Part shown: piece by piece, positions 23,096 through 44,755 of the stretch
Numbering within the stretch: position 1 is the stretch's first letter
Layout: the number at the start of each line of letters is the position of its first letter
Source: Gammaproteobacteria bacterium
GTDB taxonomy: Bacteria > Pseudomonadota > Gammaproteobacteria > UBA4575
NCBI GenBank assembly: GCA_026706595.1
Contig: JAPOYL010000013.1
Location: 1-64,000, forward strand
Direction of reading: 5' to 3'
DNA length: 64,000 nucleotides
Position numbers and translations under genes: made by a program
Notes under the pieces: generated by a model
Seen by the model: only the letters and a program-made list of their open reading frames with translations
Database searches by the model: none
What the model was told of the DNA's origin: nothing

Positions 23096-23944
23096 TCACA
23101 GCATTTCCAGACCCTCCGCAAAGATGCTCGCTACCGTAAGGTCCGCGGTTGTTCCCGGGTTGATTCGGTCACGCTTGAGACAGCTGTCAATTTCCAGCAG
23201 CTGAGACTTGTACCTGACCGGCGAATCCGAACGGCAGAATTCCTTTTCAAACGGAGTGATCATATCACTTATTTCCTGCGCTTTTAACATGCCGTATTTT
23301 CGCGAGACCAGACTGTCCGGAAACCGTGCGAGAAAAGCCAGATACAACCCGGACGCAGCCCAACACTCATCTCCCCAGTGCATCAGCAGGGATCGGTACC
23401 TCGACCTACCAAAATGGAAAATATCGTGAAAGTTGCTCGCATACTGCAAGGCTACCCGGTCCTTTGAAGAGGAGATTCTCATTGTATTTAAAAGAGTTAC
23501 CGTAGGTTCTTCATATATATCTTGATCATCAGCATGCCCCAGCCCTCCCGGCTGTGCAATCCGTATGGCCCGGTACACATTTTTTGCATCCAGCACTGTT
23601 GACTGGTGCAGGGTCTCCTCCAGTGCAACCTCAAGTTTCCGGCCGGTCCGGCCCAGCCATGCATGGATCAATGGTGCGATGAGTAAAATGATTCCGAGAT
23701 TGGTGTTTGTATCAACCGCCTGGCGGGTGGCCTGTATGGCCTGCAATATCCGCTCACCCAGGGACAGTCCCGTGCAAGCCAAAGGTGCTGCACTCGCCTT
23801 GGCACTCTCCAAAAACTCCTGAACTCCCGGCGTTGAGGTATTTGAATAGACACTGGTATTGCCAGGCTTCAAAGCCTGTACATCCAGCCAGCACACATGC
23901 CTGTACAAATCGACCAGATTCGAATGGGAACTGAATTCCTGCAT
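23096..23944 (-). CDS. triphosphoribosyl-dephospho-CoA synthase (CitG/MdcB)-like protein
   Basis: ALKPGNTSVYSN, NTNLGIILLIAPL, AQPGGLGHADDQD; H4MPT cluster member. Confidence 0.82.
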   Translation of the reverse strand: MQEFSSHSNLVDLYRHVCWLDVQALKPGNTSVYSNTSTPGVQEFLESAKASAAPLACTGLSLGERILQAIQATRQAVDTNTNLGIILLIAPLIHAWLGRTGRKLEVALEETLHQSTVLDAKNVYRAIRIAQPGGLGHADDQDIYEEPTVTLLNTMRISSSKDRVALQYASNFHDIFHFGRSRYRSLLMHWGDECWAASGLYLAFLARFPDSLVSRKYGMLKAQEISDMITPFEKEFCRSDSPVRYKSQLLEIDSCLKRDRINPGTTADLTVASIFAEGLEML

Positions 23945-24042
23945 TGCATCAAGTCACAGCTGGGCAAAAGAAGGAAGTGATCTGAAGCAGGCTGGTCTTT
24001 CGTACTGAAAATACTGGCAAAACGGTGGTCACCGCTTAAATT

Positions 24043-24957
24043 TTATATTGCTTGTTCGACCCCGGAGCGATGCCGCAAACGATCCAGAAAATGTGTCACC
24101 AGCCTTTCTGCAACAGTGACTCCACTGACACTCTGAAGACCCCGCCATGCCGGAATGCTGTTCACCTCCGTGATCCACAACTTGCCATCATGGTCGCGTA
24201 TGATGTCCACTCCGCCATAGTACATGCGTACAGCACGCACAGCGGCACGCGCAATCTCCGCAAACTCTTCATCGAGCACGGCTGGATAGCATTTCCCGCC
24301 CGCCGCCACATTGGTGATCCAGCTACTGGACTGCCTTCTCATTGCAGCCACGACCTGGCCACCAATTACGAACAGGCGCCAGTCATGAGCCTCATCTGTG
24401 CCGGTATCGATATATTTCTGCAGGTAGTAGATCTTGTTATACACCTCGAAGTTTGTCAGATCACTGTGTCTGGTTATCAACTGCAAATTTTTGCCCTGGG
24501 AGCCAAACAGTGGCTTGATCACAACCTTGCAGCCAAGTTCAATCTGCTTTCGTATGAAGGAGTAGGCCTGATGCACATGGTTTCCGACCCAGGTCGGCGG
24601 TGTGGCAAGACCCGACTGCTCAAGAAGGAAGCTGGTCATGCCCTTGTCTACACTGCGCTCAATGGCACGGGCATCATTGTAGACAAAGACGTTGAGTTCA
24701 CGTAATGCATGCAGGATATCGAGGTAAAAGACAACCTCTTCCAGGGTGCCTCCAGGTACACCACGCACGAATACGCCTGCCGGCAGGGTTCCTTCGAAAC
24801 CGGGGATAAACAGGCTGTCGCCCTCCGACCCCGTCCTCAGATAGCAGTCTGTCAGGGAAACATTCGTACAGTGATAGCCCCTTGCATTGAAAGCCTTGTG
24901 CAATTCTTTGCCGTGCCAGCCCGGGTCATCGGTGATGATTGCAATGCGCCGCGACAT
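24043..24957 (-). CDS. RimK-family ATP-grasp ligase
   Basis: LGCKVVIKPLFGSQGKNLQLI, DWRLFVIGGQVVAAMRR, ITEVNSIPAWRGLQ. Confidence 0.85.
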   Translation of the reverse strand: MSRRIAIITDDPGWHGKELHKAFNARGYHCTNVSLTDCYLRTGSEGDSLFIPGFEGTLPAGVFVRGVPGGTLEEVVFYLDILHALRELNVFVYNDARAIERSVDKGMTSFLLEQSGLATPPTWVGNHVHQAYSFIRKQIELGCKVVIKPLFGSQGKNLQLITRHSDLTNFEVYNKIYYLQKYIDTGTDEAHDWRLFVIGGQVVAAMRRQSSSWITNVAAGGKCYPAVLDEEFAEIARAAVRAVRMYYGGVDIIRDHDGKLWITEVNSIPAWRGLQSVSGVTVAERLVTHFLDRLRHRSGVEQAI

Positions 24958-24959
24958 GA

Positions 24960-25913
24960 TCAGGAAAAAGATGCGGCCAGCAGTTCGGGGGCCAGGCTCC
25001 CGCCCCTGAATGTTTTACCACTCTCAACTGCAGTGATGACAACAGAGGCAGGGCTGAAAAGCATGGGGTCAATCTTGAAAAAATCGTTGCCACAGTCCTC
25101 AAGGACCTGGGCAAACGGTTTTCCATACTCCGAAGATGCGCTCGAGGGAAGATCCCGGGACAGCTTTTCAGCACTTGCATCATCACCTTGCACGAAAAGA
25201 TGAACCCTTCCAGCAAATAGAATCGCCGTATTGGTGCGCTCCATGGCGGTCACAAAACTGGGGCTTGGCGGAGAAAGCGGGGCACTCGCCGAACCATCCA
25301 GGATGTTGTCCAGGGGAAACTTCAACGTGTGAGCCTTGTGCATTGCCACTTCCAGCACCCTGGAGACAATCTGCACCATACCGGCAATCGAACGCGTCGG
25401 AGTCAGTATGAATGTCAGGGCATTCGCGGGCAGGTTGCATACCTCTGCCACCCGGTCAATCAAGGCAACGGGAGGAATTTGGTCCACTTCAAGTACAAAC
25501 GTCGCGTGGTCACAGCTGTCGCGATAACCCAGTTCTTCAAACAGTACTTCTCTCAATGCGATTGCCCGGCCTGGCCCCGATCCCAGAGCGTGGAATTTCT
25601 CGTGTGACAAACTCCAGCCCGCATACTGGCTTGCAAGGCACGCGAGCACCGGGTTGGAAGTATGGACATGCAGGGACAGCGGCCAGTCACTTATCGCAGC
25701 TGCATGATAAAGTGTCACCCTGCCCAGGCCTCCCATGCAGATCTCGCCAATCAGCCGGCCGGCCTCCAGGCCGCCCCTGCAATCGATGCCGGCGTCGATG
25801 TATCTTGCGCCGTTGGTGAACTCACCCAGCCGTACCCTTAGTGCGGCATGCTTGTCGATGAGTTCCTGAACCAGTGGCTTTGCCAGTTGATTAACACTTA
25901 CATTCTGCATCAT
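24960..25913 (-). CDS. mch: methenyltetrahydromethanopterin cyclohydrolase
   Basis: EICMGGLGRVTLYH, HTSNPVLACLASQYAGWSLS, LGSGPGRAIA. Confidence 0.96.
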   Translation of the reverse strand: MMQNVSVNQLAKPLVQELIDKHAALRVRLGEFTNGARYIDAGIDCRGGLEAGRLIGEICMGGLGRVTLYHAAAISDWPLSLHVHTSNPVLACLASQYAGWSLSHEKFHALGSGPGRAIALREVLFEELGYRDSCDHATFVLEVDQIPPVALIDRVAEVCNLPANALTFILTPTRSIAGMVQIVSRVLEVAMHKAHTLKFPLDNILDGSASAPLSPPSPSFVTAMERTNTAILFAGRVHLFVQGDDASAEKLSRDLPSSASSEYGKPFAQVLEDCGNDFFKIDPMLFSPASVVITAVESGKTFRGGSLAPELLAASFS

Positions 25914-25932
25914 TCATTCCCTTGTCCGAAAA

Positions 25933-27099
25933 TTACACACTCGCTCTGTGAGCATCCTGCACAAGCTCATGCAATATCTTTTGCATGCGGGTCCTGATCA
26001 TCGCATGGACCTGCCCCGTGTTCTTGCCACCTGCGAATACGCTGCATACGGGTTCGTGTTCCTGAATAACTTCACCAGGATGCGGCCGGTCCGCTGTCCA
26101 CAAGGGCCAGTCAAAGCAGGCTGGCACCCGCACAGGTTCCGGGGCATAGACATGCGCATGCGCACGAAGCGGACGTTCACCGGACATCCGGGCGAGTTTA
26201 GCATGTATGCAGGCATCCATATGTGCCTGGATGAGGTGGCCTTGCCGGGTCTCGTACAGCTCGTAGGTAGCCGGGATCCGCGGGTTGATCTCAAGCACAT
26301 ACACGCACCCATCCGAGAGGATGAAATCAATGCTGTTCAGGCCAACCAGGCGGAATTCCCGGGTCAGTAGTAAAGCATAGTGAAGTGCCGTGCCATGCTG
26401 TTCTTGGGTGAGTTCAGCTCGATTGACAGCACCTTCGTACACATAAGGCCTGTCTGGACCGAACGCCCTGTGCCACAGGGTATTAAGCCCCAGCACCTCA
26501 ATGTGCGCGCCATCGGCCAGAAATGTCAGGGAGAAATTCAGACCCTCAGTTTTTCTTTGCAGGTAAACCGAAGGATCATGGCCTGATTCCCCCGTGCAGG
26601 TCGCAATGCCCCTGCCTCCTGTGCTTTTTGAATTTTTTCGAAGCCACAAATGGCAATCCTTCCGAACCCGCGAGAAACACACTTCCGGGTAGCGAATCGA
26701 ATTCTCGTCTAGTGCCGGGAAAAATATTTGCGGGTCCTTGCACCTGCGAAGCACTGCGCTGGTATTGCCGATGATCTCGCAGGTACCGAGGTCTTCCAGC
26801 AAACCGGGAGCAGACTCCAGAGCTGCATCATAGAGCAGGCCTTTCGGGGAATACTCCTCCTGCAACTGCCGTATGGCCCCAGCGGCTTCCTTTTCATTGA
26901 GCCCAGATGCAGTGCGTGAGACTTTCCGACTGACAACCGATGCCGCACAGGTGTCCATGTCTGCAAAGCCATCGATGACTGCGACCGGGTGTCCGTTCGC
27001 GTTCAGAGCCTCCGCGATTGCCCGACCCGATGTGGCTACCACCAGATAAATGCGTCTATCCCCGCTTGATCTCCCTGGCAATTTCGAACGCGTGCTCAA
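25933..27099 (-). CDS. ATP-grasp domain protein of the H4MPT cluster
   Basis: LRKNSKSTGGRGIATC, GLNSIDFILSDGCVYVLEINPRIPATYELYE; start may lie internal, given 44-nt overlap with mtdB. Confidence 0.78.
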   Translation of the reverse strand: MSTRSKLPGRSSGDRRIYLVVATSGRAIAEALNANGHPVAVIDGFADMDTCAASVVSRKVSRTASGLNEKEAAGAIRQLQEEYSPKGLLYDAALESAPGLLEDLGTCEIIGNTSAVLRRCKDPQIFFPALDENSIRYPEVCFSRVRKDCHLWLRKNSKSTGGRGIATCTGESGHDPSVYLQRKTEGLNFSLTFLADGAHIEVLGLNTLWHRAFGPDRPYVYEGAVNRAELTQEQHGTALHYALLLTREFRLVGLNSIDFILSDGCVYVLEINPRIPATYELYETRQGHLIQAHMDACIHAKLARMSGERPLRAHAHVYAPEPVRVPACFDWPLWTADRPHPGEVIQEHEPVCSVFAGGKNTGQVHAMIRTRMQKILHELVQDAHRASV

Positions 27100-27958
27100 A
27101 GTGCAGGTATACCGGTTTATCTGTATCTCGCATTTCCTGCAGAAGCCTGTGCTGGGTCTGATATTTCACATTGCCTATCACCAGCGCTCCGATTCCAACC
27201 GCACCACTATCCGAGCCTTCAACGGCCTTGCAATCATCCATTACATCAAGCCCGGCTATGCCCGAAGGTGGCACCGCATTCACATCGGCAACAACCTTTA
27301 AAGCCGATGCACTTTTTATGTGCTCTTCAGAGATTACCTGCACTCCTGCAGCAACTGCCGCCAGTACCACATCGGCATTTTTCACAACCTCGCCAATCAT
27401 GTTGTTGGCTTCCCCCCGGATATCTGTGGCGCCATCGCCATACTCACGGTTGCACAGTTCTGCCACCATCTCTGATTTTTCCTTTTGGCGCCCCATGATC
27501 AGCACACTGGCCCCCGCCTTGGCGGCCAGGAGAGCGGCCGCGGAGCCAACCGGCCCGGTGCCTCCCATGATCACAACATGCTTGCCTTCGAGATCGGTAT
27601 CAAAGTTTGTTTTCAGCCCCTGTTCCACGCAGGCCATCATGCCCGCAGCAGTCGTGAATGCACCACTTGGGTCGGCAAAACAGGAGGTCTCGAAGGGAGG
27701 CACCATCGATACCTGGCAAGTTTTCAGCATGTCCATCACAAGATGCATATCGCGCCCACCCAAGAATACTCCCGTGCGCTTGGCACCTGCCGGGCCGCGA
27801 GAAAATATGGCGTCTTGGATCAGGGCCTGCACCTCCTCCGTCTCGACGTCGGTATAACCAACCGCGTGATCCCAGCCAGCATCCAGCGCCATATTGACAT
27901 CAAACGGACTCAGATTCTTGGCCGGTGTAATCATATGTAAGATATAAGGTCTTTCCAT
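27056..27958 (-). CDS. mtdB: NAD(P)-dependent methylene-H4MPT dehydrogenase
   Basis: YILHMITPAKNLSPFDVNMALDAGWDH, VIMGGTGPVGSAAALLAAKAGASVLIMGR, ADVNAVPPSGIAGLDVMDD. Confidence 0.95.
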   Translation of the reverse strand: MERPYILHMITPAKNLSPFDVNMALDAGWDHAVGYTDVETEEVQALIQDAIFSRGPAGAKRTGVFLGGRDMHLVMDMLKTCQVSMVPPFETSCFADPSGAFTTAAGMMACVEQGLKTNFDTDLEGKHVVIMGGTGPVGSAAALLAAKAGASVLIMGRQKEKSEMVAELCNREYGDGATDIRGEANNMIGEVVKNADVVLAAVAAGVQVISEEHIKSASALKVVADVNAVPPSGIAGLDVMDDCKAVEGSDSGAVGIGALVIGNVKYQTQHRLLQEMRDTDKPVYLHFEHAFEIAREIKRG

Positions 27959-30835: not shown

Positions 30836-31222
30836 TCAGTCCGGTCCTCCCTGCCACATCATCTTGTAGCCAATTTCGTAGGTTTCTGTGGCAAATCCGC
30901 CCAGGGCCTCGAATTTCTCCCTGAAGACATCATCGGCATGCGATTCTTCATGCTGCTCGAAGGATTCCCAGTAGGTGACTATTGCGACATGTTCACTGGT
31001 CTGCTCCTTTGAGGCAATGGAGCCTTCATCCGATACGAATCCGGCAAACTTGAATACCTGCCCGCCAAGAAACCCACCTTCGTCATCACCATAGGTGTTC
31101 TTGACGGTATTGCACATCTCTCCCACTGCAAGCTCGATATCTTCCTCGGACACCCCTTTTTTCAACTTGACGACGTTGTACATCATCACGCAGCCGTACG
31201 GGACACTAAGTGCATCAAACAT
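30836..31222 (-). CDS. small conserved-looking protein, possible dimeric alpha/beta-barrel
   Basis: MMYNVVKLKKGVSEEDIELAVGEMCNTVKNTYGD...HVAIVTYWESFEQHEESHADDVFREKFEAL resembles an ABM/EthD-type fold. Confidence 0.55.
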   Translation of the reverse strand: MFDALSVPYGCVMMYNVVKLKKGVSEEDIELAVGEMCNTVKNTYGDDEGGFLGGQVFKFAGFVSDEGSIASKEQTSEHVAIVTYWESFEQHEESHADDVFREKFEALGGFATETYEIGYKMMWQGGPD

Positions 31223-31369: not shown

Positions 31370-32749
31370 TCAGCTTTCAGCGACTGCCAGCATCTCGCTT
31401 TGCCGGGTGAACTTCTCGCGTGGCTTGCTCTTGGGCTCCCCTGCAGCCACTTCTGCGGCATCAATCTTTTCCCACTGGGCAAAATTGATGTGGCGCACGC
31501 CATTGTTGTCCAGGATTTTGTACAGGCCTTCACGACCAGGCCTGTCCGAGTTGAGTTGACCAATGTCCTCCAGAAGCGCCTCCACAGATTCGACTGCACA
31601 GGCACGGTTGGTACCAATGATCCCTGAAGGCCCGCGCTTGATCCATCCTGCCGTGTACAGGCCCGGAACAACGGGACCATCCTGTTCCGCGGTGATGCGG
31701 CCGGCTTCGTTGGGAATGGTACCCCAGCGCTCATAAAACGGAACACCCGGGACAGGCACTCCGTTGTATCCGATGCTGCGAAACAAAATCCCGCACCCGA
31801 TCTCTATTGTCTGCCCGGTGCCCCGGGCGGATTGTCTGAAAGGCTCTCCTGTCAGCGCATTGGTCTCAAAGACGACCTTCTGCAGTCGCGCCTCACCCTC
31901 GAGCCGTTGCGGACTCTTCAAGAATGTCGCAATGCAGATTCGCTGTTTCCCGGTGTCCTCTGAGTCTGCAAACCGTTGAAATATCTCAACATTCTTTTTG
32001 TTCCCCCGGCCCTCCTTGGAATCGATTTCCTCCTGGCTTGCCGGGTTCAACTCGAGTTCCTCAGGCGCAATGTAGGGGCGGCAATTTTCAATCTCCAGGA
32101 ATTCCTTGAGCTCCTTGGAAGCAAACTTTGCCTGTGCTGGCCCGCGCCGGCCCACCACATAAATCGTACGGACCCTGCTCTCTGCAAGTACATCCAGGGC
32201 ATGCTGTGCAATATCCGTATGCTTCAGTTCATCTACCGATTTGGCCAGTATCCTGGCTACATCGGCTGCCACATTACCCTGTCCGATGACAACGGCTGTC
32301 TCATGGGACAAATCAAAGGTTCGGTCCCGGTAATCGGGGTGTCCGTTGTACCAGCCAACAAATTCCGTGGCGGTGTGGCTTCCTGGCAGATCCTCTCCGG
32401 GAATCCCCAGCCTGCGATCCGTTTCCGCACCACAGGTATACATCACCGCGTGATACGTTTGCTGCAGGTCCTCCGCCTTGATGTCAACCCCGACTGTGAC
32501 ATTGCCAACAAAGTTGAACTCGGGATTCTTGGCAACTTTTTTGTAAACCTCGATGGCTTGCTTGAGCTTGGGGTGATCCGGTGCGACGCCGTTGCGTACC
32601 AGACCGTATGGGGCAGGAAGTCTTTCGATCAGATCGATCTCTACATTCAGACCTGACTTGATCAGTGCTTCAGTTGCGTAAAATCCGCTGGGACCGCTTC
32701 CTACAATTGCCACACGAAGTGGACTTGATTCATCACCGAGACTGCTCAT
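31370..32749 (-). CDS. FprA/adrenodoxin-reductase-type ferredoxin-NADP+ reductase
   Basis: VAIVGSGPSGFYATEALI, PAPYGLVRNGVAPDHPKLK, VIGQGNVAADVARIL, VVGRRGPAQAKF, GWIKRGPSGIIGTN. Confidence 0.93.
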   Translation of the reverse strand: MSSLGDESSPLRVAIVGSGPSGFYATEALIKSGLNVEIDLIERLPAPYGLVRNGVAPDHPKLKQAIEVYKKVAKNPEFNFVGNVTVGVDIKAEDLQQTYHAVMYTCGAETDRRLGIPGEDLPGSHTATEFVGWYNGHPDYRDRTFDLSHETAVVIGQGNVAADVARILAKSVDELKHTDIAQHALDVLAESRVRTIYVVGRRGPAQAKFASKELKEFLEIENCRPYIAPEELELNPASQEEIDSKEGRGNKKNVEIFQRFADSEDTGKQRICIATFLKSPQRLEGEARLQKVVFETNALTGEPFRQSARGTGQTIEIGCGILFRSIGYNGVPVPGVPFYERWGTIPNEAGRITAEQDGPVVPGLYTAGWIKRGPSGIIGTNRACAVESVEALLEDIGQLNSDRPGREGLYKILDNNGVRHINFAQWEKIDAAEVAAGEPKSKPREKFTRQSEMLAVAES

Positions 32750-32846: not shown

Positions 32847-33152
32847 CTAGAAACCTAAATCGGCCTTGCGTTCCTCGGCTTCGGGCAAGGGTTCCATCGG
32901 TTCTTCGATGAGTGGCAAATCCGGTGCTTTCTCGGCATTGATCTCGATCCATTGCTCCTGTCCTTCAGGCAGATCGTCTTCTTCAAAGATTGCCTCTACA
33001 GGGCATTCCGGGATGCAGGCACTGCAGTCGATGCAGACATCCGGATCGATATAAAGCATCTCATCATCATAATGAAAACAGGCTACCGGGCACACAGATA
33101 CACAGTCCGTAAACCGGCATCCCTTACAATTTTCTGTGACAACTGTAGTCAT
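32847..33152 (-). CDS. fdxA: FdxA-type 7Fe ferredoxin
   Basis: TENCKGCRFTDCVSVCPVACFHYDDEMLYIDPDVCIDCSACIPECPVEAI. Confidence 0.93.
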   Translation of the reverse strand: MTTVVTENCKGCRFTDCVSVCPVACFHYDDEMLYIDPDVCIDCSACIPECPVEAIFEEDDLPEGQEQWIEINAEKAPDLPLIEEPMEPLPEAEERKADLGF

Positions 33153-33226: not shown

Positions 33227-34048
33227 TCACTGGCCTGAGAAAAGCAGGATTTCTCCCCGATTCAGCTCCACTGCGTCACCGCTGTACCGCTCATACTTTC
33301 CGTTTATATGCTTGTCATTGATTTTTTCTTCAAATCCATGTTCCTGCAACCGGATCAGATAGAGGCGCAGGAACAGGGGTTGATATCTACACGAATACTC
33401 GAAACTAGGCAATATCTTGGACTCTTCAAAGCAGACGACTGTCCCGCGCACCATGCCAGCACCCGTGCGCACACCCATTTTCCCCATCACAATAATCGTG
33501 CCTGCCCGCATGCTTACCGCAGTAAAATCTCCGGCATCCCCGCCGATCGCGATCAATCCGCGACGCATGGAGTTGCCAATTTCGTTCTTGGCACTGCCAT
33601 GGATAAAAATTTCACCACCTGTAATGCCTGTCGACTGACCCCTGAAGGCGCTGCCGACCATGTGACCGGCATCGCCAAGGACCGTGATCCGCCCGCCTGA
33701 CATCTCCGGCCCGACCCAGTCCGTTGCATCACCCTTGACCAGGATTTCACCACCGGACATTCCGATTCCTACATGCATGCCCACATTTCCCTCAATAATC
33801 ACACGGCCTTCGGACATGCAGGCACCGATCATTTTCACCTTGGCGAGATCGCCTTCGATGTGAATGTCTGGAGTCCCCTTTCCAGTGACCTTGAAAAAAT
33901 CGCCCACTTTGGCCTTTACATTCCCATGCATCACCTGCAGGTGCTCGATCCCCAACTCTGACAGCCCTGCGATCGAGGCAGGGCTCAGGGTCTCGGCTTC
34001 CAGGGGAACCTCTGGCTGCGTATGCAAATGTAATAACGTAGCACTCAT
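33227..34048 (-). CDS. fhcC: formyltransferase/hydrolase complex subunit C (FwdC/GXGXG domain)
   Basis: Repeating GXXGXXXG: MSGGEILVKGDATDWVGPEMSGGRITVLGDAGHMVGSAFRGQSTGITGGEIFIHG. Confidence 0.94.
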   Translation of the reverse strand: MSATLLHLHTQPEVPLEAETLSPASIAGLSELGIEHLQVMHGNVKAKVGDFFKVTGKGTPDIHIEGDLAKVKMIGACMSEGRVIIEGNVGMHVGIGMSGGEILVKGDATDWVGPEMSGGRITVLGDAGHMVGSAFRGQSTGITGGEIFIHGSAKNEIGNSMRRGLIAIGGDAGDFTAVSMRAGTIIVMGKMGVRTGAGMVRGTVVCFEESKILPSFEYSCRYQPLFLRLYLIRLQEHGFEEKINDKHINGKYERYSGDAVELNRGEILLFSGQ

Positions 34049-34085: not shown

Positions 34086-34982
34086 TTAATTCAGAATATC
34101 ATGCAGATAGAACTTGTACTTCCCGAGCTCTCCTCCATAATTACCTGCAGTCACGATCAGGGTTCCCTTGTCCGCTGCTGCATGGATACCCCGGCGCATG
34201 GCCTCCTTGACCACATACTCGTTCAGCCCATCCACCACGATCTCGTAGCCTGCCGCCACGTTAGCCGGAAGTGTTTTTTGGTCTGCAATCGAGCGTAAGG
34301 TAGGACAGTATCTGTCATTGGTCGAGGCAATCATGGACTTGTAACGCGAGCCCACCTTGCTTCCGGACCCTACGACACCTTGGGGAAATGGCAGGAATAC
34401 TCCGGCCACCTCACGCATTGCATTAGTGGCCGCAGTCGCTGCACGCAGTGCAATCCGCTGGCTCGTCCCCAGCAAAATGAGGTTTCCGCCACCCACAGCA
34501 GGCCGGATTCCAAAGGATTCCTCGACAAGAAACTCGCCTTCCATGATCGGAATCCGCCACATCCGGCGTCCGTCAATGAGTTTGCTGATCTGGTACCCGT
34601 CTCCGAAAAAACGCAGCTTTCCGCCCACAGAAACGGTCTTCTCGGATTCAAGACCATTATATGCGGCCGTTGTGGGACAGGTCATGACACATTGGCCGAT
34701 CCGGTCAATCAACTGGCCTGCAATTGTCTTGCTGCTCATGGTAAACAGCAAGACGCTGACCCCAGGGCGCCGGTCCGGCGTAGCCTCCGGAGGAACTTCA
34801 CACTCGACAGCTGCTTCAAGTTTGCAGCGAATTACCGATGTGGCAAACCCCGTCATGGATGCAGCCGCAGCACGTGCCCACTGCTTGGTATCTGCAGTGA
34901 TCACAACACGGGCACCCCACATTCCGAAAGCCTCTGCAAAGGTATCCGTAATTTCTGTTTTCTTGATCCGCATGACTTTCAT
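34086..34982 (-). CDS. fhcD: formylmethanofuran:H4MPT formyltransferase
   Basis: TFAEAFGMWGARVVITADTKQWARAAAASMTGFATSVIRCK...IMEGEFLVEESFG. Confidence 0.95.
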   Translation of the reverse strand: MKVMRIKKTEITDTFAEAFGMWGARVVITADTKQWARAAAASMTGFATSVIRCKLEAAVECEVPPEATPDRRPGVSVLLFTMSSKTIAGQLIDRIGQCVMTCPTTAAYNGLESEKTVSVGGKLRFFGDGYQISKLIDGRRMWRIPIMEGEFLVEESFGIRPAVGGGNLILLGTSQRIALRAATAATNAMREVAGVFLPFPQGVVGSGSKVGSRYKSMIASTNDRYCPTLRSIADQKTLPANVAAGYEIVVDGLNEYVVKEAMRRGIHAAADKGTLIVTAGNYGGELGKYKFYLHDILN

Positions 34983-36649
34983 GACTTCGGATTGGTCGGG
35001 ACCTCCTCGTGATCGTGAAGGTAGTCTTCACTGATTGCATAGTTACTGAACTTGACCGAGTAGTAATCTTCGAAGAAAGGCTCGATTTCAGTTGCAATAT
35101 CCTCGTTGTATCCCGGCTTGGAGTGCAGAATTTTACCCTTATGATCCGTCGCAAATTCGTGGTCCTTGATCACGGTTGTGCCGTCCTTGATTACGTAGCG
35201 GGGGGCATTGAACATCTGCTCACGATCTTCTTCCTCCGTATAGATCGTGATATCCGCATCCGCGCCGACACCCAGATGCCCCTTGTTCTTCAGGCCCAGG
35301 GCTCTGGCCGGACCCGCCCTTGTAATGATCGCAATTTCATTCAGCGTGTATTCACGATCAAGTTCCGGGAGTACCGTCTTGGCCACTGCCTTCTGGTTTA
35401 CATGCTGCAATGCCTCTTTCCGGTAGGCACTGTCCATGAGCAGCTTGATCAATTTCGGATAGTTCATGAAGGAGCCGCCATTAGGGTGATCCGTGGACAG
35501 CAGCACGCGCCACGGGTCTTTCGACATCAGGAACAGTTCCAGGCCCATTGCCCACTGCAGGGTATGGGTGTAAATGCTCTCCTGATAGCTGAACGGGATG
35601 ATACCGCAACCACTTTCACACTCCGTGTCTGCGTTCACCCACTTGTCAAACTTGACGTTGCGCAGCATCCAGGCAAGTGGAGCATCGGCTGTCATGGCCG
35701 TAGCCTTGCCGAACATGACCTGCCCCACATCGGCAGTGATATTTTCATGATCATTGATGTAATCGATGATTTCTTGGGCGCCGGATACCGGATTCTTGTT
35801 TACCTCGCCACCGAAACTGTGAAACTGGATATGAGCCATATGGGCACGTCGGCCCTGCGCCGCTTTCATGGTATCCAGGGTCGTGCTGATGTTGCCGCTA
35901 TGTCCCAGGTTGTTGCAGTGTATGTGGGGCGGATGAGGCAACCCCAGTTCATGGGCAGCTTCGATAAAGCTTTCCGTAACAAACGACGGCGTGATGTCAT
36001 AGTGATCAATACGCTCGTTTACATCAGTGATGTTGGCGTTCTTCCGGCCTTTCCAGAGTTCATCGCTGCCCGTATTCACCAGCTTGACCGTGTATGCATG
36101 TACTGAATTCACCCACCATGCAATGGCTTCCTTGAATTCCTTTTTCCGCCCTTCCTTCAGCAGTTTGTACAAAAATGCATTATTGCCAAGCAGTACATAA
36201 AAGCCCTTGTCAACTACTGGGGTGTCATCAAGCTCTTCGAGTACATGCCTTGCGGTAATTGGCGGAACCGCCGCTTCCATTGCAGTGGTATAACCCATGG
36301 TGGCATAGCGGTAGCCTGTGGCGAAGGTCGAGGGTACGATGCCGCCAGTCCCAGAACGGGTCACGGCAGTTTTGGGATGAACATCCAGGCGATGATCTTC
36401 CGGCATCAGCTTGCGCGCAAGGTTGACCTTAGGTCCTGCAATATGGCAGTGAATATCGATTGCACCGGGCATCACCACCATGCCACGTGCATCGATCCTG
36501 GAAGCAGACCTAGAAACGGAATCTACGATCTTCCCATCTCGTATGCACAGGTCCTGAACATTTCCGTCAACATTGTTGGCCGGATCGTACACACGTCCAT
36601 TTGCGATTTTTAATTCAGATGGCATGTCCTGACTATCCCCTGAACACAA
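34979..36649 (-). CDS. fhcA: formyltransferase/hydrolase complex subunit A (FwdA-like amidohydrolase)
   Basis: MPGAIDIHCHIAGPKVNLARKL, LLSTDHPNGGSFMNYPKLI; 4-nt overlap with fhcD. Confidence 0.95.
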   Translation of the reverse strand: MCSGDSQDMPSELKIANGRVYDPANNVDGNVQDLCIRDGKIVDSVSRSASRIDARGMVVMPGAIDIHCHIAGPKVNLARKLMPEDHRLDVHPKTAVTRSGTGGIVPSTFATGYRYATMGYTTAMEAAVPPITARHVLEELDDTPVVDKGFYVLLGNNAFLYKLLKEGRKKEFKEAIAWWVNSVHAYTVKLVNTGSDELWKGRKNANITDVNERIDHYDITPSFVTESFIEAAHELGLPHPPHIHCNNLGHSGNISTTLDTMKAAQGRRAHMAHIQFHSFGGEVNKNPVSGAQEIIDYINDHENITADVGQVMFGKATAMTADAPLAWMLRNVKFDKWVNADTECESGCGIIPFSYQESIYTHTLQWAMGLELFLMSKDPWRVLLSTDHPNGGSFMNYPKLIKLLMDSAYRKEALQHVNQKAVAKTVLPELDREYTLNEIAIITRAGPARALGLKNKGHLGVGADADITIYTEEEDREQMFNAPRYVIKDGTTVIKDHEFATDHKGKILHSKPGYNEDIATEIEPFFEDYYSVKFSNYAISEDYLHDHEEVPTNPKS

Positions 36650-36689: not shown

Positions 36690-38048
36690 TTAAGCCGCGA
36701 CTCTGGCCTTGCTTCCTGATAGCATTTTTTTCACGCGCTGGCATATCCCCTCCAAGACTTCCTGGTCTGTAGGGAAAGGCGAATCAAATGCAGGGCGCAG
36801 GGAAATCGGGACATCGTCCATTCTGTACACCGTTCCGCCGGTGTTGATCCCGTAGGTCGCTACTGCAAAACGCACCCTGGAAAGCCGGGTGGTATGGGTT
36901 TCTTTTACGTCCATGGAAATAACCGGTATTTTTTCCAGATGCTCGATGGCTTTCTTCGAAAAGTTGGATGCCGGATCAGAGGCAACAATCATCGCAGCAT
37001 CAGCTTCCCCTCTGGCAAGCACATCACTGGTCGTAAACTCACCTGGATTGAACCTCGGGTATCCCCGGTTAAAATTGACGCCGAATGGGTAGCCTGTCTG
37101 CCATGAAACAACATTGTCTGCACCGGTCACATTGCCATGTCCTCGAACGGGTTTGGCAACAAAGTGTGTGAACTCATTGAGATCAGAAGCCAGGGAGTAG
37201 ATGGCACCCGAATTGAAATGTCGTCCACGGGTCATGGTCAGACCCATACCCATGAACAGCACTCCGAACTGGCAGTTCTTCATACGTTCCACAAGGTCAT
37301 CCAGCACTTCCCGTGACACTCCAGTCTGCTCTTCAATGTCCTCACTGATTTTCTTTCCCTTGACCAGGGCACGTAATGCCCACAGCAGTTCAAAATCCTT
37401 GCCGGGCTTAACCTGTATAAAGATATCCGCCACAGGAGTGCTGGGAGTTTTGCGTACATCAACCAGAACCACGGTGCGGTCCTTTTTGCCGTTCGGGATG
37501 AACATGCCTTTCGGAGTCACAGCATAACGTGTGAAGTGGCGGGGATGGGATTCAGCCGGGTTACCGCCCCAATAAATGACTAGGTCAGCACGGTTTTTGA
37601 TTTCACCCAAGGTAGCCGTGCTTTCACCCACGCCCTGAAACGCCATTCCTGACGGGCCGTGGCATACCGAGGTCGTAGTATCGATATTGCCATTGATGGT
37701 GTCCATGATGTCGACCGCTACACGCTGAGCTTCACACGGGCAATCGCTGAGTCCATAGGTAATGGGAAACTTCGCATCTACCAGAATTCGGGCAGCCTCA
37801 TCCAGGCCCTCATCCAAAGTAGCCTCCTTGCCATCGATCAACACCACCGGTCGGTCTTCGAGCGTGTGCTCATAGAACCAGGCCCGCCCAAGCACACATG
37901 CCTTCTTGGCCTTGGTGATACGGTGCGCATCAAGGTCGACAGTTAGTTCCATGTCGTCGCAGACGCAACCGCAGAACGTGCAGGTCGCATCCTTTACAAT
38001 CCTGATATTCTTACTTTCTTTGGGCTTGGACTTGGCTGCTTCTGGCAT
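36690..38048 (-). CDS. fhcB: formylmethanofuran dehydrogenase subunit B/FhcB
   Basis: DATCTFCGCVCDD...KACVLGRAWF, TSVCHGPSGMAFQGVGESTATLGEIKNRADLVIYWGGNPAESHPRHFTRY. Confidence 0.93.
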   Translation of the reverse strand: MPEAAKSKPKESKNIRIVKDATCTFCGCVCDDMELTVDLDAHRITKAKKACVLGRAWFYEHTLEDRPVVLIDGKEATLDEGLDEAARILVDAKFPITYGLSDCPCEAQRVAVDIMDTINGNIDTTTSVCHGPSGMAFQGVGESTATLGEIKNRADLVIYWGGNPAESHPRHFTRYAVTPKGMFIPNGKKDRTVVLVDVRKTPSTPVADIFIQVKPGKDFELLWALRALVKGKKISEDIEEQTGVSREVLDDLVERMKNCQFGVLFMGMGLTMTRGRHFNSGAIYSLASDLNEFTHFVAKPVRGHGNVTGADNVVSWQTGYPFGVNFNRGYPRFNPGEFTTSDVLARGEADAAMIVASDPASNFSKKAIEHLEKIPVISMDVKETHTTRLSRVRFAVATYGINTGGTVYRMDDVPISLRPAFDSPFPTDQEVLEGICQRVKKMLSGSKARVAA

Positions 38049-38085
38049 AAGATATCCTCAACAAATGTAAACCGGTAGCCTTGAA

Positions 38086-38430
38086 TCAGCTTTTTACTTT
38101 GGTCACTTCAACTTGCATATGCTTTGACATCGGCATTCCAGACGCTGCCGTATCAGACCCCATCAACTGGCTCGAAGATGGTCCATAGGGAATAAAAATC
38201 ATTCCCGAGGGCAGGTCTTCTTCTTTTTTGCTTATACACGTGACAACTGTCTGACCTATGTCTGATTTTAGCCGAATCTTGTCACCGTTACTAAGCTTCA
38301 GCCGCCGCATATCCTGCTCGTTCAACTCCGCCGTGGTCGTCACTTCCAGATATTCATCCTTGAGCTTGCCCTTGTTCAGGGATGTCCCCTGTTTTTGTGA
38401 GCGTCCGGGTACAAGTATCATCGTTTCCAC
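38086..38430 (-). CDS. FwdD/FmdD-like molybdopterin dinucleotide-binding protein
   Basis: LKLSNGDKIRLKSDIGQTVV (molydop-binding barrel) and PSGMIFIPYGPSSSQLMGSDTAASGMPMSKHMQVEV; directly upstream of fhcB. Confidence 0.75.
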   Translation of the reverse strand: METMILVPGRSQKQGTSLNKGKLKDEYLEVTTTAELNEQDMRRLKLSNGDKIRLKSDIGQTVVTCISKKEEDLPSGMIFIPYGPSSSQLMGSDTAASGMPMSKHMQVEVTKVKS

Positions 38431-38689: not shown

Positions 38690-39898
38690 CTATCTAAAAT
38701 CGATGCCTAATGAAATCGTACTGAAATAGCCAAAAGCATCCGAATACACGATGCGTGCCGCAGAGTGAGGTTGCCCGCTGGCCAGACTTTCACCGTGCCT
38801 TGCATAGCGCATTTCCGGGACCCGGGACAGGTACTCGCCGCCTGCACCCCACCGCAAGACCAAATTCTCAAACAAGTCTACGCTCAGGGATACTTCCACT
38901 CCCAGTGTTGCAGCTACTTCTGAATCACTATCATCCCAGTCGGTCAGCTCATCCAGTGCAGGCTCTGCCGAAGACAGCCGTGTCCTCTGTGAGCCCTCAT
39001 ACTCGGAGTCGAGGTAAAAAAGCCCCAGCTTGCCGTCGAGCACCAGCTGCCAGCGCTGCTTGAACGGAATCTCAATGCGCCCACCCAGGTCAGCGCCATA
39101 ATACAAAGCTTCCAGATCTTCTTCCAAGGTCAGGTTGTTGACCTCCGGGTCCCGGTTGGATTCATAGGCGAAGGTTTCAGATTCCTGATCCAGCCTCCTG
39201 AAGCTGGGTCCGAAATAAAGCATCGACCTAGCCTGCCCTATCTGTGAAAACAAAGCCCCGGTCACAAGGCCCAGACCATAGTAGTCAACCTCCCGCCGGG
39301 TTCTGATCCGGATCGGATCACCCCATGCAAAATTCGGAGCTCCAAAGGGTATTTCACCACCGTCTATCCTGCCGATCCAGCCGACAGAACGAACATGCGG
39401 ATCATTTTTGATAAGCGATACAAGATGCGGCTCGGTCTCGGCTGTAATGCAAGCCCCAAGTTCGGTTCCCTGCGGGCAATACTGACTTTCAAACTGGGTC
39501 CGGACTTCGGTCCAGGCGGCGGTATCCTCCCTGTATTCGTTGACATGTGTCGAACTGTACGAGGCGAGAAAGCCACTTAACTCGGTGAACAGGTCCCGTC
39601 CGAAAGCGTGATACTTTCGCCCGGCCGTCAATTGGACCCGTGAGCCGGACCTGAATTCAGCATCATAGTGCTCAAGGAAGCCGACCACCTCTTCGCGTCC
39701 GTTTGTCCTGACAAACGGGCTGAACTCGGGCAAATCAAGGAAATGCACACCTGCATCTGCACGGAGATAGAAGTTATCCTCGGTCGTGTCATCTGGTGGA
39801 GCAGCATTGACCTGCAGACAAAACAGGGTAAGCAACATAACCGGGACACATTGGAGAACAGACAACGAAACTGTCTTTTTCCGATGCAGTACCATCAT
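38690..39898 (-). CDS. predicted outer-membrane beta-barrel protein
   Basis: Signal peptide ending QVNA-A, alternating amphipathic strands, terminal aromatic/charged FSTISLGIDFR. Confidence 0.6.
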   Translation of the reverse strand: MMVLHRKKTVSLSVLQCVPVMLLTLFCLQVNAAPPDDTTEDNFYLRADAGVHFLDLPEFSPFVRTNGREEVVGFLEHYDAEFRSGSRVQLTAGRKYHAFGRDLFTELSGFLASYSSTHVNEYREDTAAWTEVRTQFESQYCPQGTELGACITAETEPHLVSLIKNDPHVRSVGWIGRIDGGEIPFGAPNFAWGDPIRIRTRREVDYYGLGLVTGALFSQIGQARSMLYFGPSFRRLDQESETFAYESNRDPEVNNLTLEEDLEALYYGADLGGRIEIPFKQRWQLVLDGKLGLFYLDSEYEGSQRTRLSSAEPALDELTDWDDSDSEVAATLGVEVSLSVDLFENLVLRWGAGGEYLSRVPEMRYARHGESLASGQPHSAARIVYSDAFGYFSTISLGIDFR

Positions 39899-40146: not shown

Positions 40147-40419
40147 ATGCCAAGATATTTGATCGAACGTGAAATTCCAGGTGCTGGCGATCTGAACGGT
40201 GATGACCTCAAAGGTATTTCTCAAAAATCGTGCAGCATTTTAAAGGAAATGGGTCCGCAGATTCAGTGGGTTGAAAGCTATGTGACCGATGATAAGGTCT
40301 ACTGCACCTATATCGCACCGAATGAAGATGAAATTCGTAAGCACGCCGAAGAAGGTGGGTTCCCGGCGAATAAAATTTCTGAAATCAAGAATGTGATCAG
40401 CCCAACGACCGCAGAATAG
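40147..40419 (+). CDS. DUF4242-family small protein
   Basis: MPRYLIEREIPGAGDLNGDDLKGISQKSC...VTDDKVYCTYIAPNEDEIRKHAEEGGFP; upstream SD-like AGGAGA. Confidence 0.8.
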   Translation: MPRYLIEREIPGAGDLNGDDLKGISQKSCSILKEMGPQIQWVESYVTDDKVYCTYIAPNEDEIRKHAEEGGFPANKISEIKNVISPTTAE

Positions 40420-40489: not shown

Positions 40490-41119
40490 TCAGTTTGAAA
40501 GGAGTTCACCTTCCTCGTCCTTGCTGGAATTCATGCCCAAGAATTCTTTCAGATTGGCCAGGAAAGACAGAGTCCCGGAATGTGACGCATCGTCGCCCGC
40601 CAGGCGTTGCTGACCGGACATCGCCTTGGTGATGAATCTGATCATCCTGGCTGAATCCCACTCACGCTCGCCCACGGCCCTGTAGACAATTTTACCTTCC
40701 GGGCTGACAAGAAATGTCGTAGGCAGGCCCATAACGCCCCAGTTCGCGAGCCTCATATCCTGATCGACAAGGATGGTGAATTCCACTGGTACCTGGTCTA
40801 GGAATTTTTTTATCCCGTCGAGACTTGGACCGACATGTATGCCAATGACCTCGAGACCATCGCCGTTCAGCTTCTTGTGCAAATTATCCAAGGCTGGCAT
40901 CTCCTTGCGGCAAGGCGCGCACCAGGTAGCCCAGAAGTTCAGCAATACGAACTTGCCCTGATAATCGTCCAAACGGACACTCGTTCCATCGATAGCCTGC
41001 AGCGTGAAATTCTCCGCTGCAGGTTCACCCGAGACAGGGTCCATAAGTGTCCTGGCATGTGCTGCGCACAAAAATAAATACAGTGCGACACACAGACACC
41101 ATCCGATTGTTCTCATCAT
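40490..41119 (-). CDS. TlpA/ResA-type thiol-disulfide oxidoreductase
   Basis: Signal peptide; FVLLNFWATWCAPCRKEMPALDNLH, MGLPTTFLVSPEGKIV. Confidence 0.92.
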   Translation of the reverse strand: MMRTIGWCLCVALYLFLCAAHARTLMDPVSGEPAAENFTLQAIDGTSVRLDDYQGKFVLLNFWATWCAPCRKEMPALDNLHKKLNGDGLEVIGIHVGPSLDGIKKFLDQVPVEFTILVDQDMRLANWGVMGLPTTFLVSPEGKIVYRAVGEREWDSARMIRFITKAMSGQQRLAGDDASHSGTLSFLANLKEFLGMNSSKDEEGELLSN

Positions 41120-41178
41120 TGTGGCAAGGGCCTTTTATATGGTTTTGAAATACGGGATATACCATCCCATTGGATGAA

Positions 41179-42528
41179 TCAGTATTTCAATTTGTTCTTA
41201 TGCGTCCAGTCCGGATCATCCTTGCTGACGTCACCGATCGGCGCTGCAAATGCATCGGCCACCAGTGCAGGTACGTTGCTGCCTATCAGCGACTGCAGAA
41301 AAGCAAGCAAGTCCTCGATCTCTGATTCCGTCAGGTCCAGCGGTCGAATCAGGGGGCTGAGCAATTCATTGGGGATTCCGCCCTGGTTGTAAAAGTCCAC
41401 GACTTCACGCAGCGTATGAAATGAGCCATTGTGCATGTAGGGTGCGGTCAGAGCCACATTTCTCAGGGATGGAGTGCGAAACTTCCAGCGATCATTCGGA
41501 TCCTCAGTCACCTCGTACAGGCCCAGATCATTCTCCTTGGCCCTGGAAACCGATTCGATGACGCTGTTATCAAGCTCAGTGAAGATCCCTGGAGCCAGTT
41601 GTACCCGTGTAGTTCCAGAATCGCGACTCATGGACGCCTCGTACCCCAAACCGGTATTGTGCAACCGGTCGTCTGTGAACAGGGCATGCTCACTCTGGAC
41701 CAGATGGCAGGCACTGCATGTCCCCTTGCCGGTAAAAAGCTCGAAACCACGTTTGGCCTGCTCACTGATGACATCCTTTTCCTTGCCGTAGTACCAGCGG
41801 TCGAAAGGAGAATTCGCTGCATTCAGTGTCCGCTGATAGCTGGCCAGAGCCATACCTATCGTTTCCATAGTCGGCCCACGGCCATTAAACGCCTCTTCGA
41901 ACAAACCGTCATATTCATCAATGGCCCTGATTTTGTTGATCACATAGCCGATCGACGGGTTGGCCATTTCGTTGCGTGCCAGAAAAGGAGACCAGACCTG
42001 CTGCTCCAGGGTGGATTCGCGCCCGTCATGAAAGATCCTGTCGAGGTAAGCTACATTGTAAACCGTCGGTGTGTTTCGCTTTCCGGAACGGCCCTCGACG
42101 CCAACGGCTGTCTCCATCTCATTATTGGTGAAACCCTGCTCGGGGATATGACACATTGCACAGGAAAACGTGTTGTTGATCGACAAGCGCCGATCAAAAA
42201 ATAACTTTCTCCCCAGCAGGATTTTTTTTGTGGTAAGCGGATTGTCTGCAGGTACCGGCACCGGCGGGAGCCCTAATGGCGGCTGCCTGGCGAACTCGAT
42301 CAGTTCGGCTTCCTTGCCAATGCGGTTTAGCAAATCCAGAGTATCAGTTGTGTAATCGGCTGACTCATAGCCGTGCTTGATATCTCCAGGCCCGAATATC
42401 GCCCGGTTCTGCAACTCGGATGCATCCTCAGAACCCCGTGATGCAGTAACCGAAATAAGCGAAAGTGCAATACTGAAAACGACCAGGATGTTGATGACCA
42501 GCACGGTCTTGTTCATGCGATTCATCAC
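41179..42528 (-). CDS. MauG/di-heme cytochrome c peroxidase family protein
   Basis: Two CXXCH motifs (CAMCH, CSACH); RKLFFDRRLSINNTFSCAMCH, FRTPSLRNVALTAPYMHNGSFHTLREVVDFYNQGG. Confidence 0.93.
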   Translation of the reverse strand: MMNRMNKTVLVINILVVFSIALSLISVTASRGSEDASELQNRAIFGPGDIKHGYESADYTTDTLDLLNRIGKEAELIEFARQPPLGLPPVPVPADNPLTTKKILLGRKLFFDRRLSINNTFSCAMCHIPEQGFTNNEMETAVGVEGRSGKRNTPTVYNVAYLDRIFHDGRESTLEQQVWSPFLARNEMANPSIGYVINKIRAIDEYDGLFEEAFNGRGPTMETIGMALASYQRTLNAANSPFDRWYYGKEKDVISEQAKRGFELFTGKGTCSACHLVQSEHALFTDDRLHNTGLGYEASMSRDSGTTRVQLAPGIFTELDNSVIESVSRAKENDLGLYEVTEDPNDRWKFRTPSLRNVALTAPYMHNGSFHTLREVVDFYNQGGIPNELLSPLIRPLDLTESEIEDLLAFLQSLIGSNVPALVADAFAAPIGDVSKDDPDWTHKNKLKY

Positions 42529-43274
42529 GAACCTGCTTGTGCAGTCAACACCCCGTCTTCAATGAGAAGCGTTTTTATATCAATTGCAATCAATTGATCA
42601 TGTAAAAATGAAACGCTGTATTCCTGTCGAATGTTGCGGGATCTGTCGATCAGAAAAGCGCGCAGGATATGCGCCATGGTCCCGGTAAAATTCCCGTCCT
42701 CATCGAATTCCTGAATGACCATCTGACCATATTGCCGGAGAATGGGTGCCAGCACCTCTTCGGAGGAGGTAGTCAGAAACAGCCACTCCGGGTCCCCCTC
42801 ACTAAAACTTCCCCCATACAGTTTCATCGCCCCGGGTGTGTCATGACTGGGGTCAAAGCTGACACTGATCAGGCGAATTTTATCGGCCAGTTCGGGCTGA
42901 CCCTTGAACCGCTCCTTGAGTTTGTAGAATACAGCCGTTGCCAAAGGGCACCCGTTGATTTCCGAGCAACTAGTATAGATGAAGGTAAGAAGAACGATCT
43001 TATCACCCATCAGGTCTCTCAACTCCCTCTGTTTTCCGTCCGTACCCAATACGGCACCGCCGCCAGCAGCACTGACTACCGGCAAGCTATAGGTACCCGG
43101 TTCAGGGGGATCGTAAGGGAGTTCCGGTCTCCATCCATCGGCAATAACCTGCACATCTGCCATGGCCGCATGCGATCCGGGAAGGGGCGCATCCTCATCA
43201 GACGAACGGTCACAACCGGACAATACCAACAGCAGTGACAGGCAGAGTGTTAGATATACAGAACCTTTTTCCAT
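42525..43274 (-). CDS. SCO1/SenC-family copper chaperone lipoprotein, variant CX5C
   Basis: Lipobox VLSGC; VLLTFIYTSCSEINGCPLATAVFYKL; VSFDPSHDTPGAM; MAHILRAFLID. ORF extends to 43301, inside a terminator hairpin. Confidence 0.87.
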   Translation of the reverse strand: MEKGSVYLTLCLSLLLVLSGCDRSSDEDAPLPGSHAAMADVQVIADGWRPELPYDPPEPGTYSLPVVSAAGGGAVLGTDGKQRELRDLMGDKIVLLTFIYTSCSEINGCPLATAVFYKLKERFKGQPELADKIRLISVSFDPSHDTPGAMKLYGGSFSEGDPEWLFLTTSSEEVLAPILRQYGQMVIQEFDEDGNFTGTMAHILRAFLIDRSRNIRQEYSVSFLHDQLIAIDIKTLLIEDGVLTAQAGS

Positions 43275-43290
43275 CTGAAAATTGTAGTCC

Positions 43291-43324
43291 AAAAACAGCA
43301 AGGCCGCCTTATAGGCGGCCTTGC
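43291..43324 (-). terminator. intrinsic terminator/attenuator between mtoX and SCO1 gene
   Basis: Minus strand GCAAGGCCGCC-TATAA-GGCGGCCTTGC then TGTTTTT: perfect 11-bp stem plus T-run. Confidence 0.88.
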
Positions 43325-43372
43325 TCCAGATAAAATCTGGCTATTAGTACAGCATTGTAGCTAAGCCGCGTT

Positions 43373-44755
43373 TTACTCCATCAATTGAGACAACAGTGTG
43401 TCTTTTGAGTTCGGCTTTTGCCCATACAGTGAATAGGCACCGAATCGCATTTGATGCGGTCGGCCCAGGTTCTCTGCATAGAAGTCAATCGCAAACTTTT
43501 CTACAAGCTTTTCACCATCCCACTCGAACAGCTTAAAAAACTGCTCGTCCTGGTCACCGGTCTTGTCCCAGTTGCCCAGCAGGGATGAAGTGAAGTACAT
43601 ACGCTTTCCATCCCAGCTCTGTGAAGTCATGTTCACTTGAGAACCAACGACATGTTCGTAGGTCTGCTTGGGATTGTGCGGATCAGAAACATCGAAGTAT
43701 CTGGTTTTGCCATCCATGAAGGTTTGCACCCAGAGGCCCTTGTCGTCAGCTGTGATGGAAATGTCTACAGGCAACGGAACCTGGGAGGGATCGCCGATAT
43801 CACCGACTGCCGCAGCATGCCACTCACCTGCACCATCTTCATAAATCAGCCAGATCTTCGAAGTCAGTGCGGTTGTGGTGAAGCAGTAGTTGTTTTGAGA
43901 ACCCCATGCGCAACGGATTTCCAAAGGTGAACCCGGTACTTCAAACACTTTCTTGGGTTGGCGGGTGTGCAGGTCCCAGACAACCACAGTGTTGCCAAAT
44001 CGCTTCATGGCCTCAGGATCCGCAAGCATCTTGCCGAAGTCCATCATGTAGTTGGACCAGCCCGTGAACGAGGAGGTAACCATGACGTTGCGGCGTGGCA
44101 ATACACGGACGTCATAACCATATCCGTCTGCAATATTCCCAACTTTTACGGCACCACGCATGTCTTCATCCGTCGGCATCCAGTGCGCCGCAACAAACTC
44201 ACCCTCATTGGTGAACTCTGCGAGGCCGGTTCGGCCACCATGATCCTTGTTGTTGGACAGTGCGCTAACCATGATTCTGCCGGGAAGCGCATACATGGTG
44301 TGCGGGCCAACCATACCACCGGTTTTCTCTACAAAATCGGTGATCACCTTGTGCAGGGAAGGCTTGCTGGGATTAGAATGGACATCAAAAATAAAGATCT
44401 TGTTGGTGTCCAGGCCACCCGCAAACAGATACCTGCGGTCATCCGTCAAGCCGGAATGATGTGCCTCATTTCGACCACCAACTGAAAGTGAGTTGACGAC
44501 TTTTCCATAGTATTTAGACTCTGGGTTCACCGAGACGGTTACCAGCTTGTCTTGCCCATCACCAACGCCTTCCTTACCTAGCGTCCAGATATACACATAA
44601 TCTTCCTGGCCAACAATCTTAGCCATATAGGGAGACATACAAGTCTCATCCGCGATGGCAGCAGACTGAAAACCAACTACAGATGCCAGCAGGACACACA
44701 GGGAAGCAATGCTGCCTTGTATCCACCTAGCGTGTAATTTTGACATTTTTTTCAT
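43373..44755 (-). CDS. mtoX: methanethiol oxidase (SBP56 family), periplasmic
   Basis: Signal peptide + YVYIWTLGKEGVGDGQDKLVTV, GRNEAHHSGLTDDRRYLFAGGLDTNKIFIFD, GRPHQMRFGAYSLYGQ; followed by SCO1 and MauG-like genes. Confidence 0.93.
   Translation of the reverse strand: MKKMSKLHARWIQGSIASLCVLLASVVGFQSAAIADETCMSPYMAKIVGQEDYVYIWTLGKEGVGDGQDKLVTVSVNPESKYYGKVVNSLSVGGRNEAHHSGLTDDRRYLFAGGLDTNKIFIFDVHSNPSKPSLHKVITDFVEKTGGMVGPHTMYALPGRIMVSALSNNKDHGGRTGLAEFTNEGEFVAAHWMPTDEDMRGAVKVGNIADGYGYDVRVLPRRNVMVTSSFTGWSNYMMDFGKMLADPEAMKRFGNTVVVWDLHTRQPKKVFEVPGSPLEIRCAWGSQNNYCFTTTALTSKIWLIYEDGAGEWHAAAVGDIGDPSQVPLPVDISITADDKGLWVQTFMDGKTRYFDVSDPHNPKQTYEHVVGSQVNMTSQSWDGKRMYFTSSLLGNWDKTGDQDEQFFKLFEWDGEKLVEKFAIDFYAENLGRPHQMRFGAYSLYGQKPNSKDTLLSQLME

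Follow-up and report, generated by a model that had tools for sequence, protein, structure and literature searches.

The textbook view of H4MPT-dependent methylotrophy in bacteria is that the formyltransferase/hydrolase complex Fhc releases free formate, which a separate formate dehydrogenase (FDH) then oxidises. Fhc (6s6y, from Methylorubrum extorquens) has no D subunit and no metallopterin and is unable to oxidise formate (PMC11656701, PMC12054007). The archaeal formylmethanofuran dehydrogenases Fwd/Fmd (5t5i, 8rja, 7bkb, 9sfi) contain a B subunit with a [4Fe-4S] cluster and a Cys or Sec residue followed by His, together with a D subunit, an A hydrolase and a C subunit. By analogy, the nearest precedent for an oxidative bacterial Fwd is the enzyme of Candidatus Ethanoperedens (8rja): its Fwd core has an almost unchanged active site and works in the oxidative direction owing to a different acceptor module (PMC11493965); that module, FwdI, reduces F420. 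Bacterial FwdB genes are already known. Among the MopB proteins surveyed in one study, 149 FwdB representatives are bacterial, with transfer from Archaea inferred; the accessible part of that work is a phylogeny of the catalytic subunit and mentions neither an operon nor an electron partner, nor does it connect FwdB with the absence of Fhc and FDH (PMC10100899). Hakuba Actinobacteria carry an fwdDBA-ftr-fwdC cluster with Fe-S cysteines, a catalytic Cys118, a D subunit and ftr inside, as in the locus described below; the portions of that paper available to us report that methanopterin-synthesis genes are lacking there, and do not describe a ferredoxin/FprA pair, an Fhc paralogue or FDH absence (PMC7325909). 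In M. capsulatus, the genes for formylmethanofuran dehydrogenase subunits A and B, whether Fwd-type or Fhc-type, strongly affect fitness on methane (PMC13108547). In the literature covered, we found no description of an Fwd operon of aerobic methylotrophs with ferredoxin/FprA or with replacement of Fhc and FDH. What sequence comparison appears to add here is thus a variant that combines FdxA/FprA with the absence of Fhc and FDH.

The stretch analysed (the window) comprises 64,000 nucleotides of contig JAPOYL010000013.1 from a gammaproteobacterial assembly, GCA_026706595.1. Its minus strand carries a seven-gene operon, fwdD-fwdB-fwdA-ftr-fwdC followed by genes for a 7Fe ferredoxin and an FprA-type NADPH-ferredoxin reductase:

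38086-38430, minus strand: fwdD-like gene, molybdopterin-dinucleotide-binding subunit of 114 aa (PF01568, NF042908, PDB FwdD chains, Foldseek)
36690-38048, minus strand: fwdB-type catalytic subunit, 452 aa (TIGR03129, archaeal FwdB chains in the PDB, ligand and pterin-site residues)
34979-36649, minus strand: fwdA/fhcA, amidohydrolase subunit predicted to hydrolyse formyl-methylofuran (TIGR03121)
34086-34982, minus strand: ftr/fhcD, formylmethanofuran:H4MPT formyltransferase (TIGR03119, PRK02114)
33227-34048, minus strand: fwdC/fhcC (TIGR03122)
32847-33152, minus strand: FdxA-type 7Fe ferredoxin, proposed electron carrier (ferredoxin I structures, NF045490)
31370-32749, minus strand: FprA/adrenodoxin-reductase-type NADPH-ferredoxin reductase, proposed ferredoxin:NADP+ link (1lqt)

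Judging from its genes and their relatives, this operon probably encodes a redox-active formylmethanofuran dehydrogenase that converts formyl-methylofuran to CO2, delivers the electrons to NADP+ by way of ferredoxin and takes the place of Fhc and FDH.

In profile searches, the B, A, D (Ftr/FhcD) and C proteins all exceeded curated NCBIfam cut-offs: FwdB with 507 bits against 328 (TIGR03129), FwdA with 706 against 393 (TIGR03121), FwdC with 259 against 131 (TIGR03122) and Ftr with 408 bits to TIGR03119 and 421 bits to PRK02114. Scores fell below the cut-offs of the narrow NCBIfam models of archaeal W-Fwd. FwdA aligned with archaeal FwdA at 434-484 bits and with M. extorquens FhcA at 349 bits, with metal-site motifs kept, so that the A amidohydrolase and the C subunit of an Fwd are both present. 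The operon differs from archaeal Fwd/Fmd in its bacterial host, in housing ftr and in lacking the FwdF/FwdG polyferredoxins, instead of which it encodes the 7Fe FdxA and the FprA reductase. We did not count FwdF/FwdG, a methanogen-type feature, as part of the Fwd core, since they are replaced or absent in Ethanoperedens and the Hakuba Actinobacteria. With Ethanoperedens the locus shares the Fwd core and, as proposed here, the CO2-releasing direction, the partners being FdxA and FprA rather than FwdI. A scan for promoters and terminators returned signals at chance level only. Just upstream of fwdD, a putative outer-membrane protein of 402 aa (38690-39898, minus strand) is found in some species of the genus (L035 and L036, not L037 and L038), and each of the genus's five genomes has, with fpr on one side and cysS on the other, the gene for a 128-aa protein with weak heme-oxygenase/monooxygenase-like matches (30836-31222, minus strand, in the window).

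With Fhc, the window operon has in common the B-A-D-C gene order, an Ftr (FhcD) encoded within the operon of the complex, the substrate carriers and the position in the pathway. This arrangement is what an ordinary formyltransferase/hydrolase would have, in which a non-redox FhcB scaffold accompanies formate release and the cysteine motifs are incidental. We consider such a reading improbable, since the window operon differs from Fhc in two respects, the presence of a D subunit and of the metal ligand in B.

The small open reading frame at 38086-38430, which the preliminary description took to be FwdD-like, is indeed so. It scored 40.5 bits with Molydop_binding (PF01568, cut-off 26.8) and matched NF042908 with an E value of 2e-23 (82.7 bits, below the 175 cut-off of that narrow archaeal model), as well as the solved archaeal FwdD chains 2ki8 (1e-17), 8rja_D (2e-14) and 5t5i_D (9e-14). 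An AlphaFold model with pLDDT 71.6 had FwdD of 5t5i, 2ki8, 8rja and 7bkb as its best Foldseek matches. The D subunit expected to complete the pterin site of an Fwd, and lacking from Fhc, is therefore encoded directly upstream of fwdB. FwdD is conserved in 10 relatives, the fwdD-fwdB order is kept in relatives down to 57-62% FwdD identity and, in public genomes, FwdD lies within 2.5 kb of FwdB in 73 of 76 evaluable loci; the pairing is thus not due to chance. At eight Methylococcales-like loci (L106, L109, L112, L114, L117, L120, L122 and L127) fwdD is on the strand opposite fwdB, and the fdx/fpr pair was not found there where flanking sequence sufficed.

The B subunit carries the motifs C23-x2-C26-x3-C30, with C51 further on, and S127-V-C129-H130-G-P-S, located as the preliminary description had reported. 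Its best PDB matches are catalytic archaeal FwdB chains (376-387 bits), whereas the scaffold FhcB of M. extorquens matched with 53 bits over the C-terminal part only. In the alignment, C129, the Cys of the TSVCHGPS motif and putative ligand, falls on the Cys that binds the metal in 5t5i_B and on a residue printed as X in 9sfi_Q, presumably Sec (selenocysteine), which bears out the assignment of this motif to the catalytic Cys-His type. We aligned 80 Fwd-type proteins (the best 80 of 261 loci), 34 ordinary FhcB, many of them from the same genomes and so serving as an internal control, and three archaeal FwdB. As can be seen from this alignment, C129, H130, G131, P132, R302, H304 and N306 are present in 80/80 of these best Fwd-type proteins and in 0/34 ordinary FhcB, and N163 in 80/80 and 4/34, respectively. 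Since the 80 loci were found by a scan seeded with GCVCDDM and DTTTSVCH, the 80/80 at those motifs is partly due to selection; N163, R302, H304 and N306, and the presence of FwdD, are free of it. Of the 173 columns invariant in the three archaeal FwdB, the window protein keeps 65% and FhcB 35% on average.

The preliminary description regarded both intact motifs as a redox sign, and proposed that their presence in non-redox FhcB would speak against it. The Cys-His half of this argument stands: archaeal FwdB and ordinary FhcB separate at those columns. The Fe-S half does not, since C23, C26, C30 and C51, found in all 80 of the best Fwd-type proteins, are retained in 29 of 34 ordinary FhcB as well. 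These N-terminal [4Fe-4S] cysteines, present in the window FwdB as in archaeal Fwd, are non-discriminating, also fit an ordinary Fhc and were discarded as proof of redox activity. The loss of Cys129, His130, R302, H304 and N306 from FhcB paralogues in the same genomes argues against an ordinary Fhc: in Fhc, subunit B has neither a Mo/W ligand nor a pterin site, whereas the residues of both are intact in the window. An AlphaFold model of FwdB, built from a 10-row alignment, reached pLDDT 43.5 and was left out of the evidence. Although they have lost the Mo/W ligand, the 34 ordinary FhcB (loci L041-L131) mostly keep the Fe-S cysteines; their evolution is much faster than that of Fwd-type B.

The window FwdB is under strong constraint and is not a relic. 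Compared with a congener (G003, locus L036), dN/dS was 0.02 for fwdB and 0.10 for fwdD, the latter ranging from about 0.07 to 0.10. Where the two operons occur together (28 genomes), Fwd-type B was more conserved than FhcB in 378/378 pairs, with mean identities of 77% and 46%. In the B-subunit tree, archaeal FwdB and the Fwd-type proteins fall together and every FhcB sits on one long branch; such long branches make deeper inference unsafe. A recent relic had been offered as the alternative to an active enzyme. That the operon holds archaeal-type core subunits only, with FwdF/FwdG not among them, would suit the decay of an acquired archaeal Fwd. Yet the dN/dS values, ligand residues invariant across several phyla and retention of the Fwd-type as sole copy in streamlined genomes of about 1 Mb make decay extremely unlikely, and the alternative was rejected.

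The presence of FDH was then compared with that of ordinary FhcB in 59 Fwd-type genomes. In 30 of them both occurred and in 15 neither did; 14 had FDH alone, and no genome had FhcB without FDH. The association has a Fisher p of 2e-6, a value that ignores kinship; placed on the tree, it reduces to about four changes and three independent pairs, which are concordant where they differ and not significant. Neither ordinary FhcB nor FDH was found in any of the five genomes of the window's genus, in a 1.59-Mb chromosome assembled as a single record (L063/G059) or in three genomes that are 97-98% complete (G107, G353 and G247), and the absence is therefore not merely an assembly gap. No NAD-type formate dehydrogenase rose above the cut-off in the FDH-less genomes tested, and no formate-tetrahydrofolate ligase was found in those searched, the window's genus included. 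With these two consumers searched for, free formate would have no evident consumer, which also argues against an ordinary, formate-releasing Fhc in the window's genus.

MobA and MobB are encoded in the window's genome. Retention of MobA was considered as proof of an Fwd pterin and set aside as non-diagnostic: apart from complex I, at least one other MopB-family protein is encoded in the window's genome and in the FDH-less genomes tested. In the window's genome, a 764-aa protein of the DMSO-reductase superfamily, below every curated cut-off, is encoded on another contig (C32; L032:9069-12532). After it comes a flavin/NAD reductase of 375 aa whose C-terminal part is of the Fe-S type.

Both presumed electron partners are well matched. 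FdxA hit ferredoxin I structures (4e-29) and NF045490 (2e-34), and FprA scored 368 bits with 1lqt (FprA) and 339 bits with adrenodoxin reductase. A ferredoxin and a reductase gene adjoin fwd at 46 of the 63 loci that could be evaluated (41 downstream, 5 upstream), and in dual genomes of the window's family the pair does not adjoin the separate fhc operon. Both observations tie the pair to fwd. In the other 17 loci, which have sufficient flanking sequence, the pair is absent next to fwd, so that the FdxA/FprA route is not universal; these loci are what one would expect if a redox-active complex delivered its electrons elsewhere, for example to quinone, with fdxA-fprA serving another reaction. 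Weighing the two, we regard a different acceptor as possible though rather unlikely.

The suggestion of the preliminary description that the complex may bind a Mo/W-pterin and oxidise formyl-MFR gains support, at the level of sequence, from the ligand and pterin-site residues, from FwdD, from the ferredoxin and reductase partners and from Fhc and FDH being absent together. In the mechanism that we propose for this formylmethanofuran dehydrogenase, Ftr (FhcD) would move the formyl group from formyl-H4MPT to methylofuran and FwdA would hydrolyse formyl-methylofuran. Formate would tunnel through the complex to the interface of FwdB and FwdD, where a Mo- or W-bis-pterin, liganded by Cys129 next to His130, would oxidise it to CO2. 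Electrons would pass from the [4Fe-4S] cluster of FwdB to the operon-encoded FdxA, then to FprA and NADP+. Within the genus of the window, this complex would by itself stand in place of the hydrolytic Fhc scaffold complex and a separate FDH; with one complex replacing both, free formate would no longer be a needed intermediate.

The NADP+/NADPH potential is near -320 mV. That of formyl-MFR/CO2 is about -530 mV (PMC11493965), so that oxidation would be strongly favoured. One can also imagine a redox-active complex working mainly in reverse, from CO2 through formyl-MFR to methylene-H4MPT, as in methanogens. The active-site residues are the same as in CO2-reducing Fwd, pterin coordination is reported to be almost identical in CO2-reducing and CO2-releasing enzymes (PMC11493965), and the similar operon of Hakuba Actinobacteria is discussed for Wood-Ljungdahl metabolism (PMC7325909). 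Yet with the proposed ferredoxin and FprA as partners, NADPH could hardly drive a reduction at about -530 mV (PMC11493965). Methanethiol oxidase and Fae, encoded in the window, also point to formaldehyde oxidation, and we judge a mainly reductive role improbable. The C1 genes in question are as follows:

22460-22987, minus strand: fae (TIGR03126)
24043-24957, minus strand: MptN-like ligase (NF040720)
24960-25913, minus strand: mch (TIGR03120)
27056-27958, minus strand: gene that we take to be mtdB-like (no NCBIfam match)
40490-44755, minus strand: methanethiol oxidase cluster mtoX-SCO1-mauG-tlpA (MtoX by NF052453, 760 bits against a cut-off of 650; SCO1, MauG and TlpA are presumed identities)

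The H4MPT genes feeding the complex thus span 22460-27958, and the window also holds beta-RFAP synthase and methylofuran-synthesis-like genes. Since the mto cluster is found immediately upstream of fwd in a neighbourhood conserved in the family (L035-L046, L052-L058, L069), the gene content points to methanethiol-derived formaldehyde as one C1 source for the pathway.

Relatives are encoded at 261 loci of the public genome set, the best 80 of which fall in Gammaproteobacteria (methanotroph families included), Betaproteobacteria, Chloroflexi, Gemmatimonadetes and Planctomycetes; when Gammaproteobacteria were sampled evenly, 14 of 369 species had the Fwd-type. The Fwd-type operon is therefore a widespread clade among uncultured bacteria, not an oddity. 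Many relatives are dual, with an fwdD-B-A-ftr-C-fdx-fpr operon and an ordinary fhcB-A-D-C operon that is often adjacent, and in the window's family a formate dehydrogenase gene adjoins the latter. The close relatives are metagenome-assembled genomes, and their isolate names hint at studies of sponges and other marine settings.

With somewhat less assurance, we lean towards a broader view, in which archaeal-type Fwd, 7Fe ferredoxin and FprA would form a formate-free C1 oxidation module of aerobic bacteria that gains NADPH and has replaced Fhc and FDH in about three or four lineages. Such a module would change the standard map of bacterial H4MPT methylotrophy. A redox-active Fwd in aerobes would merge formate release and oxidation in one complex, save low-potential electrons for ferredoxin and NADPH, and account for genomes seemingly devoid of any formate oxidation; being possibly exposed to oxygen, it may be of interest for CO2 capture. 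Since TIGR03129 covers both enzymes, metabolic reconstructions may credit uncultured methylotrophs with the wrong reaction. The dual-operon genomes offer a natural control for the change from metalloenzyme to scaffold.

A small SCO4226-like protein (PF14026) of the nickel-responsive type, encoded on the plus strand (40147-40419) and thus opposite to mto and fwd, is conserved in the gap that separates these two clusters.
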